Under the pieces are notes generated by a model. It ran no database searches. It saw only the letters and a program-made list of their open reading frames with translations, and was not told the origin of the DNA. Of a stretch of DNA of 64,000 bases, positions 6,436 through 42,698 are shown piece after piece. The stretch is from Idiomarina loihiensis. Lineage in GTDB: Bacteria; Pseudomonadota; Gammaproteobacteria; Enterobacterales; Alteromonadaceae. The stretch spans positions 2,356,001 through 2,420,000 of the forward strand of contig NZ_CP074112.1 of NCBI RefSeq assembly GCF_024584785.1. Direction: 5' to 3'. How positions within the stretch are numbered: the first letter of the stretch is position 1; the number at the start of each line of letters is the position of its first letter. The position numbers and the translations under genes are program-made.

Positions 6436-6911
6436 TTCAGTAACTGGCGTACATCATTCAAAATCTGCTGCTCTAGCTCCACTTCATAGCCTTCACGCTC
6501 GCGATCCATTTTACGGATCTCTCGCTTTGGATACTGTTTGCGGGCGTCATGAGTAGGCATGTGCTTAATCCGTTCATACATATCATGCAACGCTGGATAA
6601 CGCTCAGCATACTTTGCCGTATTGGATTCGACCCGCAAATCAAGCAGCACCACTAATCGTAGTGCCCCCTCAGAATGCGGACATTGCCCCTGCTCCATGG
6701 CCTTGGCGATGGTCACAATGCTTTCTAGCAGGCGCTCATTACGTCCCGCTAGGGCTTCATCGCGACGCTGATCCAACTGACGCCGCTGAAGCTTGACTTG
6801 CGCAATCAAACGTCCAGCATAAAAAGCTAAGCCGGCAATGATCAGAACCCCAGCAACAAGTATTAGCCAACCCCACCAGGGCATGTTTGCATCAATCATC
6901 ATCATCCTCAT
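6423..6911 (-). CDS. DUF2489 membrane-anchored protein
   Basis: The protein has a single N-terminal membrane segment (about residues 12-31), then a basic helical linker and a soluble helical domain containing CPHSEGALRLVVLLDL, the conserved core of DUF2489. The function is unknown. It overlaps the end of yihI by 20 bases, so the two are cotranscribed. Several ATG codons in a row (residues 1, 3, 4, 5 and 10) make the start uncertain by up to nine residues. Confidence 0.82.
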   Translation of the reverse strand: MRMMMIDANMPWWGWLILVAGVLIIAGLAFYAGRLIAQVKLQRRQLDQRRDEALAGRNERLLESIVTIAKAMEQGQCPHSEGALRLVVLLDLRVESNTAKYAERYPALHDMYERIKHMPTHDARKQYPKREIRKMDREREGYEVELEQQILNDVRQLLKDFA

Positions 6912-7350
6912 CGTCGTTTAGATCTAAGCCCAATAGCTCTGCTAGTTGCTCAAAGCGCGTGGTACGTTCATCTACATAACGAGATTCAGCTACAGATAGT
7001 TCATCGCCTTCATCTAAACGGTCCAATAGATCCTGCAACCGCTCATCATTTTCTATGGCTGCGAGTTCCGCCATAGCTGCTTTACGGTCAAAACTTGGTA
7101 CTACGGGTGCCACTGCATCTGCGGCCATAAGGGTGATGGGTTTTTTACTACCTAACCGTGGATCATGGACATTAGCCTGAGCCGTTGCCTGAGCTTTACT
7201 GGCTGGTGCAACGTTGAATCTACTCCCAGGTTTACGACCTTTGCCAGCGTGCGCGCCTGAGGCATCGGGTTTGCTCTTTTCCCACTCGGGAATAACGCGT
7301 TTTGAAGGGGCTAATGGCCCTGTTTTGCGGGTTTTTTTACGGCGTGTCAT
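6892..7350 (-). CDS. yihI: Der GTPase-activating protein YihI
   Basis: YihI stimulates the ribosome-assembly GTPase Der. The protein starts MTRRKKTRKTG, with the lysine/arginine-rich N terminus followed by GRKPGSRFN. It ends in an acidic helical domain with LDRLDEGDELSVAESRYVDE and a poly-aspartate tail, the family layout. The frame is open five codons further upstream, but the ATG at 7350 gives the family N terminus. Its position beside the engB/csrC-like locus matches E. coli, where yihI follows csrC. Confidence 0.9.
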   Translation of the reverse strand: MTRRKKTRKTGPLAPSKRVIPEWEKSKPDASGAHAGKGRKPGSRFNVAPASKAQATAQANVHDPRLGSKKPITLMAADAVAPVVPSFDRKAAMAELAAIENDERLQDLLDRLDEGDELSVAESRYVDERTTRFEQLAELLGLDLNDDEDDDD

Positions 7351-7415
7351 ATAGTGCCATTCCAACTGTGGAAGTGAATAAACTGGCTACTAGTTTACCT
7401 TATCTTGGCGACAAT

Positions 7416-7440
7416 AAAAAAGGCGATGTTGCCATCGCCT
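7416..7440 (-). terminator. Rho-independent terminator upstream of yihI
   Basis: Read leftwards: stem AGGCGATG/CATCGCCT with a four-base loop, followed directly by six T. It would end a leftward transcript before yihI. The nearest leftward protein gene, cytochrome c4, already has its own terminator, so this one points to an independent RNA in the gap. Confidence 0.8.
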
Positions 7441-7660
7441 GATTTATTCTCATCTTTCCACACAGCGCACGTGCGATTTTCGAGAACGGTTGTCACTATC
7501 TTCCTTGTTTTTAATTATAACGTCCCTGAGCTTTTTATTATTATTGTTATTATGTTAAGCGCATTAACCGAGCTCTGTTATTTTTATTGTGCTTGGTTAA
7601 AAGGCGGCCTCCTGGCCGTGTTGTTATTCCCTGGATTATTATTCTTTTCTACTTGAACCT
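7416..7660 (-). ncRNA. Candidate CsrC/CsrB-type regulatory RNA
   Basis: No gene of convincing coding character lies between 7351 and 7932. On the minus strand this stretch has five GGA triplets (complements at 7628-7630, 7610-7612, 7523-7525, 7502-7504 and 7457-7459). Three of them sit in CARGGA contexts (CCAGGGAA, TCAGGGAC, ACAAGGAA). One lies in a textbook CsrA-binding hairpin, CGGCC-AGGA-GGCCG, at 7604-7617. A strong terminator ends the transcript at 7416-7440. In E. coli, csrC lies between engB (yihA) and yihI in the same orientation as yihI, and the synteny here agrees apart from an inserted cytochrome c4 gene. The 5' end is not defined by any clear promoter. Identity is inferred. Confidence 0.5.
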
Positions 7661-7872
7661 TTTTGGGTCATTCTTGCCTTAATTAATAACCCGCTTGATT
7701 CTCGCTACGCCACTAATCACGTGGGCTTGCTTGATTTCAATGGCATTCAGACTACTGATTCACAAAATTTAATCAATGACTTTTATGTTATAAGAAAGGC
7801 ATTTCATATAACCATAATTGACAAATCGTTATTTTACGCGGGTTTAACAGTCATTTGGATGCAACAAAAAAA
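7661..7872. other. Non-coding gap between csrC-like locus and cytochrome c4
   Basis: About 210 A/T-rich bases without a credible gene. It may hold the promoter of the candidate RNA. I did not find a convincing -35/-10 pair or a palindromic UvrY/GacA box. Confidence 0.5.
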
Positions 7873-7873
7873 T

Positions 7874-7904
7874 AAAAAGGGCAGCTATCAAGCTGCCCTT
7901 TTTG
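7874..7904 (-). terminator. Terminator of cytochrome c4 gene
   Basis: A GGGCAGCT/AGCTGCCC stem extended by A/T pairs, with a four-base loop and a T-rich tail when read leftwards, 29 bases after the cytochrome c4 stop. It is nearly symmetric and could work in both directions. Confidence 0.9.
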
Positions 7905-7932
7905 CTCATATTTTGTGCGTTACCCGCTAGGC

Positions 7933-8559
7933 TTAGTACAAGCCTTGGATGTATTGAGACAAAATTTCAATATCTTTATCGGTCAGTTTACTGGCAACGT
8001 CACGCATCATATTGTTCATATCGTTGGCACGTTCACCGCTGCGGAACAATTCTAACTGTTGTTTCATATAAGCCGCATGCTGACCAGAAATATCTGGGAA
8101 ATTAGCTAAACCCATGCCGTCGCCACGCGGACCATGACAAGCTGCACAAGCTGCAATACCACGAGTTTCATCACCAGCGATAAATAGCTTTTTACCGGCA
8201 GCAATGACATCTTCAGGTGCTTCGCCACCGCTCATGTCTTTACCAGCATAGAAAGCCGCCAAGTCAGCCATGTCTTGCTCACTTAACATCATTACTTGGC
8301 CCTGCATGATTGCGTTAGCACGGCCTTGCGAGCCGCCGGTTTCAGCAGCTAGCTTATAATCTTTTAATTGTTTAAACAGGTACCCTTCATGCTGACCCGC
8401 AATTTTCGGGTACATATCCGATGGAGCATTACCATCAGGTCCGTGACATGCGGCACATACGGCGGCTTTTTGTTGACCTGCTTCGGCATTACCAGTAGCC
8501 GCCATGGCAAACCCGGTCAAACCAACGTAGAGGCCTACGAACAATGCAATTTTTTTCAT
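7933..8559 (-). CDS. Periplasmic dihaem cytochrome c4
   Basis: A signal peptide (MKKIALFVGLYVGLTGFAMA) is followed by two cytochrome c domains, each with a CAACH haem site and a downstream methionine ligand. At about 208 residues it matches cytochrome c4, a soluble or membrane-attached electron donor to terminal oxidases. The start at 8559 gives a normal Sec signal, while the open frame upstream to 8607 would bury it. It lies between engB and yihI, where many gammaproteobacteria keep this gene. Confidence 0.94.
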   Translation of the reverse strand: MKKIALFVGLYVGLTGFAMAATGNAEAGQQKAAVCAACHGPDGNAPSDMYPKIAGQHEGYLFKQLKDYKLAAETGGSQGRANAIMQGQVMMLSEQDMADLAAFYAGKDMSGGEAPEDVIAAGKKLFIAGDETRGIAACAACHGPRGDGMGLANFPDISGQHAAYMKQQLELFRSGERANDMNNMMRDVASKLTDKDIEILSQYIQGLY

Positions 8560-8671
8560 GATCGATATCTCTGCTCTGGATGTTGTAACAGACGCTATTT
8601 TACACAAAAGTTGTAAGGATTAAACGCCTAATCATGCTAGTATACGCTTTCTATTGAGGTCTGGCACGTCT

Positions 8672-9343
8672 ATGAGCACCATATTAAACTTTCAACCAAC
8701 AAAATTTATCACCAGCGCAGCCGATATTCGACAATTACCTGATGACTCAGGGGTCGAGATTGCTTTTGCTGGGCGTTCTAATGCCGGTAAATCTAGCGCA
8801 TTAAACACTATCACACGGCAGAAGGCGCTGGCTCGCACCAGTAAGACTCCTGGCCGCACCCAACTAATCAACGTATTTGAGGTACTTCCGGGTAAGCGTC
8901 TTATTGACCTACCTGGTTATGGATACGCAAAAGTACCGATTGCGATCAAAGAAAAATGGCAACAAGCGCTAAGCGAGTATTTACAAAAGCGTCGCTCGCT
9001 CAAAGGCCTCGTATTATTGATGGATATCCGTCACCCCTACCGTGATGTCGATCAAGAATTATTGCATTGGGCCACCGAGAGCGAAATCCCGGTGCTGGTG
9101 CTGCTTACCAAAGCGGACAAGCTTAAACCAGGAGCCCGTAAGTCAACCTTATTACAGGCACGCGAGGCCGCTATGGTGTTTGGTGGTGACATCACCATTG
9201 AAATGTTCTCATCGCTGAATCGCTTAGGCCTGCCAGCAGTTGAGGCAAAACTGAGTGACTGGTTAAATCAGCCCGTCGTTGACGAAGCTGTAGAGCTTGA
9301 TGACAGCTTGGACACGGAGTCAGTATCACCGGATCATGAATAG
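8672..9343 (+). CDS. engB: Ribosome biogenesis GTPase EngB (YsxC/YihA)
   Basis: EngB is a TRAFAC GTPase needed for 50S assembly. Visible motifs are G1 GRSNAGKSS (34-42), the G2 threonine region in [11 protein letters not shown]3 DLPGYG (79-84) and G4 TKAD. The ATG at 8672 gives the usual [16 protein letters not shown] start. The acidic tail of about 25 residues is longer than in E. coli. Its last codons overlap the start of the EamA transporter gene. Confidence 0.95.
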
Positions 9344-41131: not shown

Positions 41132-42523
41132 TTATGCCGACAACGTACGGATTAAGTTTCTGTAGTCTTCTTTTATATCATTCTGCGTGTCTTTTAGTGA
41201 TTTAATTTTTCGACACGCGTGTAAAACTGTTGTGTGATCTCGCCCACCAAAGGCATCGCCAATTTCTGGCAAACTATGGTTGGTTAATTCTTTCGCCAGC
41301 GCCATGGCCATCTGCCGTGGCCGCGTTACTGAACGGCTACGTCGCTTCGAGAGCAAATCCGCAATTTTGACGTGATAATACTCTGCCACAGTTTTCTGGA
41401 TATTATCTATGGTTACCAACTTTTCTTGCGCCGCAATCAAGTCGCGTAAGGCCTCACGAACAAAATCTATGGTTATCTGACGGCCCGTTAAATTCACGTT
41501 AGCCGCTAACCGGTTGAGTGCTCCTTCTAATTCCCGCACGTTTGAACGTAAACGTTTAGCGATAAAAAATGCAACTTCATGAGGTAAGGTAATGCCTCGT
41601 TCTTGTGCTTTACGGATAAGAATCGCCACCCGCGTTTCTAATTCCGGCGGCTCAATCGCTATCGTTAGGCCCCACCCAAAACGTGAGCGCAATCGGTCTT
41701 CTACCCCTTCAATTTCTTTCGGGTAAAGATCGCTGGTCATGATGATTTGCTGATTACCTTCAAGTAACGCATTGAAAGTATGAAAGAATTCCTCTTGAGA
41801 CCCTTTCTTGTTGGCAAAGAAGTGAATGTCATCAATCATCAATGCATCAACGGAGCGATAATAACGTTTAAATTCATCGATGGTGCTGTTTCGAATCGCA
41901 TTAACCATATCCTGCACAAATCGCTCAGCCCGCATATAAAACACCTTAGCGTCTTTCTTATGCGCCATGATGCCGTTACCCACCGCATGCAATAAGTGAG
42001 TTTTACCTAAACCCGTACCGCCATAAATAAATAGCGGGTTGTAAACACCACCGGGATTTTCGGCAACTTGTTGTGCTGCAGCTAGAGCTAATTGGTTTGA
42101 TTTACCTTCAACGAAATTATCAAAGGTATACTCCGGCACAATATTGCACTCAAATGCAGGCGCTGGCGTACTTTCAGTGGTCCATGGTGTATGCCGCATC
42201 GCAGGCTTGCGAGCTGGAGCAGCTTGCGGGGTGGGTGCTACCGGGGCTGCTGACGGAGCCGCCGCTTGCTGAATACTGCCTACCGTAAAAGCAACGTGTG
42301 GTGCCTTGCCCTCTTGCTCTGCTGCTAACTCGCCTAGGTAATCATTGATGAGGTTTAGATACTTATCTTTAACCCAATCCACCACATACATATTAGGTGC
42401 ATACAAGGTTAAGGTGTCATCTGCTATTTCTGCCTGAAGGGGACGGATCCAGGTATTGAAGTGCTGCGCTGTTAATTCGCTTTGTAATCGTTCCGCACAT
42501 TGTTGCCAAAGCGATTTATTCAC
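41132..42523 (-). CDS. dnaA: Chromosomal replication initiator DnaA
   Basis: Domain I ([14 protein letters not shown]...) is followed by a proline/alanine linker. The AAA+ domain has Walker [14 protein letters not shown] and Walker [10 protein letters not shown]. Domain IV carries the box-recognition signature [20 protein letters not shown] prefer the GTG at 42523. It has GGAG six bases upstream and gives MNKSLWQQC, aligning with the M-x-x-SLW start of relatives. In-frame ATG codons at 42535 and at 42583 (the latter with its own AGAGGA) are alternatives. Confidence 0.97.
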
Positions 42524-42698
42524 ACCTGACTCCATTATTTTGCTTTTATAGTTATGGTCTAGATTTGACTGCCCACGGATCATCTCGATCCTCTGTATTT
42601 ATTGGTTGTTCAGTCACCGAATAATGAATTTGATTGTACTGAAAAGCCCCGCAGATCGCTAGCGTTTGCGGTAAAATAACTAGGCACTTGTCGCATCT

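Follow-up and report, generated by a model that had tools for sequence, protein, structure and literature searches.

The gap under study lies in a window of 64,000 nucleotides, the whole stretch analysed here, and the Idiomarina loihiensis genome that was searched consists of one contig of 2.90 Mb. The gap is flanked by yihI and by a c4-type cytochrome gene, beyond which stands a GTPase gene that we take, from its position, to be engB (Table 1). Very probably the gap is occupied by a gene for a small RNA, which is a reduced equivalent of E. coli CsrC. The gene order in E. coli K-12 is yihA(-), csrC(+), yihI(+), and the sequence-only reading had claimed the same neighbours and orientation for the gap. 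The relative orientation was borne out, and the gap RNA has the position and strand of csrC between engB and yihI. The immediate adjacency was not, since engB and the RNA are separated by the cytochrome gene.

Table 1. Features of the yihI-upstream gap and of the partner RNA locus (window positions, except for sRNA2)
Feature	Position	Strand	Basis
yihI	6892-7350	minus	PF04220, 2e-28
Intrinsic terminator of the RNA	7413-7440	minus	terminator scan and RNAalifold consensus
Putative full-length small RNA, ~330 nt	7413-7742	minus	terminator; 5' end placed from promoter-like element
Conserved RNA block (alignment A1, model R1)	7413-7637	minus	24 genus sequences
3' hairpin closed by UUCUC/GAGAA	7447-7486	minus	RNAalifold consensus; pairs hardly vary, no covariation support
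Pairing core UGACAACCGUUCUC	7482-7495	minus	complementary to sRNA2 GAGACCGGUUGUCA with one mismatch; covariation
GGA site 4, CANGGAWG type, adjoining the pairing core	7502-7504	minus	invariant, 24/24
GGA site 3, CACGGACG type	7523-7525	minus	invariant, 24/24
Nearly invariant A-rich stretch of AAN repeats, possible Hfq (ARN) site	7532-7553	minus	alignment; putative Hfq role
CGGCC-AGGA-GGCCG hairpin, GGA site 2 in loop	7605-7618	minus	motif search, RNAalifold, hairpin comparison
Block A AAUCCAGGGAAUAA, GGA site 1	7624-7637	minus	complementary to sRNA2 UUCCCUGGAUU
Conserved upstream region with promoter-like element	7739-7817	minus	second block of blastn matches and alignment
-10-like TAGTCT, 16 nt after the -35	7749-7754	minus	putative assignment
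-35-like TTGATT	7771-7776	minus	position conserved in genus and g52; putative assignment
Two-way terminator-like hairpin, boundary of cytochrome gene and RNA gene	7874-7903	unassigned	terminator scan
c4-type cytochrome gene (c-type)	7933-8559	minus	PF00034 and PF13442
engB-type GTPase gene	8654-9343	plus	name from position
sRNA2, ~110 nt	G000:C1:1617002-1617114 (L096 1535-1649)	plus	between ruvB and ybgC

The leftward intrinsic terminator that had been noticed in the gap was recovered, with AGGCGATGGCAACATCGCCTTTTTT beginning at 7440. Upstream, a promoter-like element at 7776-7749 was recognized, and because of it a start near 7742 and a length of ~330 nt are more probable than the roughly 220-280 nt proposed earlier. 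The 16-nt spacer of this element was found in all 25 genus loci, with the -10-like variants TAGTCT (16), TACTCT (5), TACATT (3) and TACCCT (1), and a similar element precedes the copies in g52, one of two other genera carrying the RNA (labelled g52 and g35). The element was not listed by a simple consensus promoter scan. The predicted fold of the 331-nt RNA (7412-7742) had a z of -3.58 and was equalled in stability by none of 100 shuffles. Within the genus, RNAalifold returned a covariation term of -0.11, with two-sided changes in three of 31 pairs.

The conserved block was full-length in 24 of the 26 genus genomes, our own included, shortened in G015 and cut by a contig end in G023; 101 of the 225 reference positions of alignment A1 (24 genus sequences) were invariant. 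In the G015 copy (L027) the promoter-like element and the 3' half remain, but the 5' portion, and with it GGA sites 1 and 2, is missing. The covariance model R1 also matched in seven g52 genomes and in all 17 g35 genomes. Two adjacent matches each were observed in G059 (L071, L080) and G248 (L180, L184), which suggests a longer or two-domain RNA there. On the evidence of sequence, a conserved gene is established at this locus, and it is presumably expressed.

The yihI-upstream gap was also inspected in 26 genomes of 20 other genera, picked for weak model hits or for being at hand and thus not a random sample. It was GGA-rich on the yihI strand in 10 of these genomes (8/20 genera) and not in the remaining 16. 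The 10 rich gaps held 7-13 GGA within 260 nt, and of 300 shuffles between 0 and 19 attained the value. A pattern search located a GCGA...TCGC terminator in seven of them, and related hairpins were seen by eye in the other three.

GGA sites, the AGGA hairpin and the Csr setting

The five GGA triplets reported on the minus strand of 7416-7660 were exact (starts 7630, 7612, 7525, 7504 and 7459), as were the CARGGA contexts of three of them and the presentation of one as the tetraloop of CGGCC-AGGA-GGCCG; no further minus-strand GGA was found from 7660 up to 7870. A count of five is not above chance, since dinucleotide shuffles gave a mean of 3.87 and 339 of 1000 reached five; the case rests on conservation. 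Four GGA were kept across the 24 genus sequences: CCAGGGAA, the AGGA loop (ACGGA in one sequence), the CACGGACG type and the CANGGAWG type. This conservation is partly explained by the pairing with sRNA2 described below. In the same alignment of 24, the columns were fully invariant for three of five GGA trimers, compared with 24 of the 190 remaining trimers, and a fourth site was retained in 24/24 once one indel was allowed.

An AGGA or ACGGA loop closed by at least four pairs is unusual, arising in 13 of 1000 shuffles of our own block. None of the 24 genus sequences lacked the AGGA hairpin, again with at least four pairs, and 13 of the 17 g35 genomes had it; in g35 the search covered a longer stretch than in the genus, so that chance is somewhat higher there, and a different hairpin in G168 was left out of the g35 count. 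At the outer of the four stem pairs, every genus sequence of the 24 has GC, and g35 has CG (10), UA (1), AU (1) or a UG wobble (1). The covarying GGA hairpin that the earlier reading had advised looking for in related genomes was thus found, as an AGGA stem with compensatory changes in g35. All seven g52 genomes lacked it. Of the four conserved sites, one is held in a hairpin loop on a covarying stem.

A search with the Rfam CsrB, CsrC and Rsm models, a check that had been suggested, gave no Csr family match at the gathering threshold in the window and none up to E 10 over 6900-8200. A total of 29 sub-threshold Rfam matches were set aside as lying under their family cut-offs, one of them a CrcZ match at 7482-7547 (20.4 bits against a gathering score of 95). 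Separately, an Rfam AsdA match (antisense RNA of dnaA) was observed at window positions 41945-42025, plus strand, opposite a dnaA-like gene (41132-42583, minus). Under strict filters, RF00018 (CsrB) was detected in none of the 26 genus genomes; over all 59 genomes searched, 18 matched at E up to 1 and nine passed the cut-off. The abundance of GGA typical of CsrB and CsrC was not observed, with four to five per sequence and a count at chance level. The nearest match to the UvrY/GacA box TGTAAGN6CTTACA (7789-7806) carried three mismatches, and the window held 26 such matches against 28 expected by chance. The earlier description as a reduced or diverged CsrC-like RNA is supported by locus, strand, conserved GGA sites and AGGA hairpin, and is not supported by Rfam match, number of GGA or UvrY box. 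By position and anatomy it is largely right to call the gap RNA a reduced, diverged CsrC counterpart outside the Rfam family.

The genome carries two csrA-type genes. As read from the translations, one follows an alaS-like gene and the second (L002 1471-1656) seems to lie among phage replication genes. The UvrY counterpart adjoins uvrC (L158 1495-2148) and has 34% identity along its length to E. coli UvrY. Pfam recognized only a GerE domain in it and no receiver domain, and serine takes the place of Asp54 in the alignment, the position (D54) that was mutated in UvrY of Shewanella (PMC3171408). This counterpart without a recognizable receiver domain, together with the lack of a detected Rfam CsrB in the genus, makes the Csr circuit look rewired.

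A second RNA, sRNA2, and its predicted pairing with the gap RNA

The R1 covariance model gave a second match in our own genome (L081). Its assignment as a second Csr RNA on the same strand was ruled out, as the conserved promoter (TTGAAA-16-TATAAT) and terminator lie on the opposite strand, where they delimit sRNA2. This RNA, at ruvB-ybgC, was found in all 26 genomes of the genus, though incompletely in one; its body is highly conserved, and it had no Rfam match at gathering score. Its model R2 matched the same seven g52 genomes as R1 and, with E of 0.1 or lower, 14 of 17 g35 genomes, of which two exceeded 0.01. In two of the three g35 genomes missed by R2, sRNA2 was recovered by a pattern with two mismatches; it was not found in G248 with either the model or that pattern. 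Weaker R2 matches occurred in 22 genomes of other genera, and all 13 that were checked lay beside ybgC and/or ruvB. Upstream of the sRNA2 promoter, at a distance of up to about 150 nt, two conserved elements resembling palindromes were observed, TTGGTC...ACCAA and ATTAG...CTAAT, the former presumably FadR/PdhR-like.

The sequence-only reading was incomplete in that this partner RNA and a covarying pairing had been overlooked. The predicted duplex of the two RNAs in our own genome reached -58.2 kcal/mol, compared with -34.4 +/- 3.8 for shuffled sRNA2 (0/300 as strong), and none of 300 shuffles of the gap RNA was as strong either. Among 13 pairs tested, of 33 available, 12 gave a duplex z below -2.5; the duplex of G014 was not significant (23/150 shuffles). 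In the 24 genus pairs the best duplex always included the core and GGA site 4; it took in site 3 in 19 pairs, site 2 in three and site 1 in two. The 5' block AAUCCAGGGAA, which holds site 1, adds another 11 nt of complementarity to sRNA2, and a separate ungapped Watson-Crick run of at least 10 between this block and sRNA2 was present in 21 of the 24 pairs. Our genome has exactly two copies of TGACAACCGNTCTC, one within the gap RNA and one on the strand opposite sRNA2; when one mismatch was tolerated, three occurrences were counted against two for a reversed control pattern.

The core pair changes between genera. In most genomes of the genus UGACAACCG faces CGGUUGUCA, in g52 UGACAACCA faces UGGUUGUCA, and in g35 the combinations include CGACAAUCG with CGAUUGUCG and CGACAACAG with UUGUUGUCG or CUGUUGUCG. 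At the four variable core columns, Watson-Crick pairs were formed in 41, 45, 45 and 37 of 46 genomes and standard pairs in 45, 45, 46 and 42. The non-standard pairs were at the last column in G001, G107, G246 and G243, at one more position in G243, and at the first column in G150. Permuting partners among the 46 genomes, a procedure that ignores relatedness, gave a mean sum of 120.2 against the observed 168 (0/20000), and within g35 alone 36.3 against 51 (0/20000). By our reading of the sequences, no more than about four compensatory changes are independent, to which one joint loss can be added. In G209 both RNAs lack the core, with no GACAA in the 481-nt RNA region and no TTGTC in the sRNA2 region. 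The sRNA2 of G059, missed by the model, was found separately, and its core is complementary to the G059 RNA. Between sRNA2-like RNAs and yihI-upstream RNAs of other genera, no pairing above shuffles was detected in any of six pairs.

At the level of comparative sequence, the conservation of the gene, the covariation of its hairpin and the covariation between the two molecules are demonstrated. Specific base-pairing of the kind described for McaS is supported by sequence covariation and duplex energy, and the UGACAACCG block is highly conserved because of the predicted pairing with sRNA2, which overlaps GGA sites. The co-evolution of the two RNAs in sequence suggests that they pair and jointly tune one global regulator.

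Proposed mechanism and comparison with known systems

The reading that we consider likely is that of a ~330-nt positional counterpart of csrC, with about four CsrA-type GGA sites, which combines weak CsrA titration with sRNA2 pairing in a mutual antagonism. The AGGA hairpin and the CAN-GGA sites would give the gap RNA a weak capacity to titrate CsrA; that it binds CsrA we infer. It would also base-pair with sRNA2, in a duplex that joins the core UGACAACCG, GGA site 4 and mostly site 3. As for the outcome and its direction, sRNA2 may free CsrA by masking or destabilizing the CsrC-like RNA, and/or the CsrC-like RNA may soak up sRNA2. The masking of GGA sites favours silencing of the decoy by sRNA2, and sequestration of sRNA2 by the decoy is somewhat favoured by the wider spread of sRNA2-like RNAs and by their CU-rich, SD-complementary segments. 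A more ambitious version, in which the pair forms a two-RNA Csr switch where sRNA2 masks the CsrA sites of a CsrC-type RNA and so controls free CsrA in place of the UvrY phosphorelay and a canonical CsrB, is offered tentatively, as somewhat less probable than its negation. In that version the CsrA decoy itself would be the conserved partner of a small RNA.

Selection for pairing, and not for CsrA, could have preserved GGA sites 4, 3 and 1; site 2 alone is mostly outside the duplex (paired in 3/24). The strongest of the rival explanations is that the RNA is a base-pairing RNA or a sponge of sRNA2 with no CsrA role, most of its GGA being kept as the complement of the CU-rich sRNA2. The frequent inclusion of sites 4 and 3 in the best duplex, the 11-nt complement of site 1 in sRNA2, the chance level of the GGA count, the resemblance of the AAN repeats to Hfq sites and the presence of sRNA2-like RNAs in more genera than the pairing all speak for this view; however, the AGGA loop of site 2 persists on a covarying stem, and GGA-rich stretches occur at the same locus in other genera, and we regard it as unlikely, though deserving of attention. 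Much less probable is that the RNA is the ordinary CsrC of this lineage and that its pairing with sRNA2 is a side effect of CU against GGA composition. The csrC position and the GGA-rich counterparts at the yihI-upstream locus agree with it, but the core UGACAACCG, which covaries with sRNA2, is free of GGA, and shuffled sRNA2 of equal composition pairs much less. Finally, that the conserved stretch is a yihI leader, or chance, is hardly credible: it lies just upstream of yihI on a common strand, but an intrinsic terminator precedes yihI, a terminator-like hairpin follows the cytochrome gene, and conservation drops soon past the terminator.

The favoured reading, a weak CsrA decoy that pairs with sRNA2, can be compared with several described RNAs. 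With E. coli CsrC the gap RNA shares place and strand relative to yihA/engB and yihI, a terminator just before yihI of a similar GGCGA...TCGCCTTTTTT form, and a CGCC-AGGA-GGCG hairpin like that of g35. In contrast to CsrC, which has 14 GGA in 246 nt, it carries four to five, and it further differs in the lack of an Rfam match, the intervening cytochrome gene and the pairing partner RNA. McaS of E. coli, in the available part of its description, is a weak CsrA sponge with four GGA that acts on csgD mRNA (PMC10729762). The gap RNA resembles it in its four GGA and in the proposed combination of weak sponge and base-pairing RNA, but McaS pairs with an mRNA (PMC10729762), whereas the partner detected here is a small RNA.

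Among Csr RNAs of the same order, Pf1, Pf2 and Pf3 of Pseudoalteromonas fuliginea are likewise little conserved in sequence between genera (PMC9927453, PMC11882849, as far as the accessible text goes). However, they contain 9-25 GGA, Pf1 has a putative GacA box, and no partner RNA is noted for them in that text. CsrB1 and CsrB2 of Shewanella oneidensis, also Csr RNAs of a related marine gammaproteobacterium, depend on BarA/UvrY and, in the sections available, are described with numerous AGGA motifs and UvrY boxes, whereas the UvrY counterpart here has no Pfam-recognized receiver domain (PMC3171408). Control of Csr decoy RNAs has been described, in the excerpt available, at the level of transcription, by BarA-UvrY, and of turnover, by CsrD with RNase E (PMC5574718). 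No RNA that pairs with CsrB, CsrC or RsmY and no Csr RNA of Idiomarina was recognized among the papers listed from the open-licence literature, which is weak evidence of novelty. The partner RNA and the covarying pairing are new here.

If the favoured reading is true, a partner RNA that pairs with Csr decoys would add another layer to their control, one supported by the covariation between two unlinked genes, and the pair would form a directly testable two-RNA module. Moreover, Csr-type RNAs that are missed by family models may be findable by locus and by partner.
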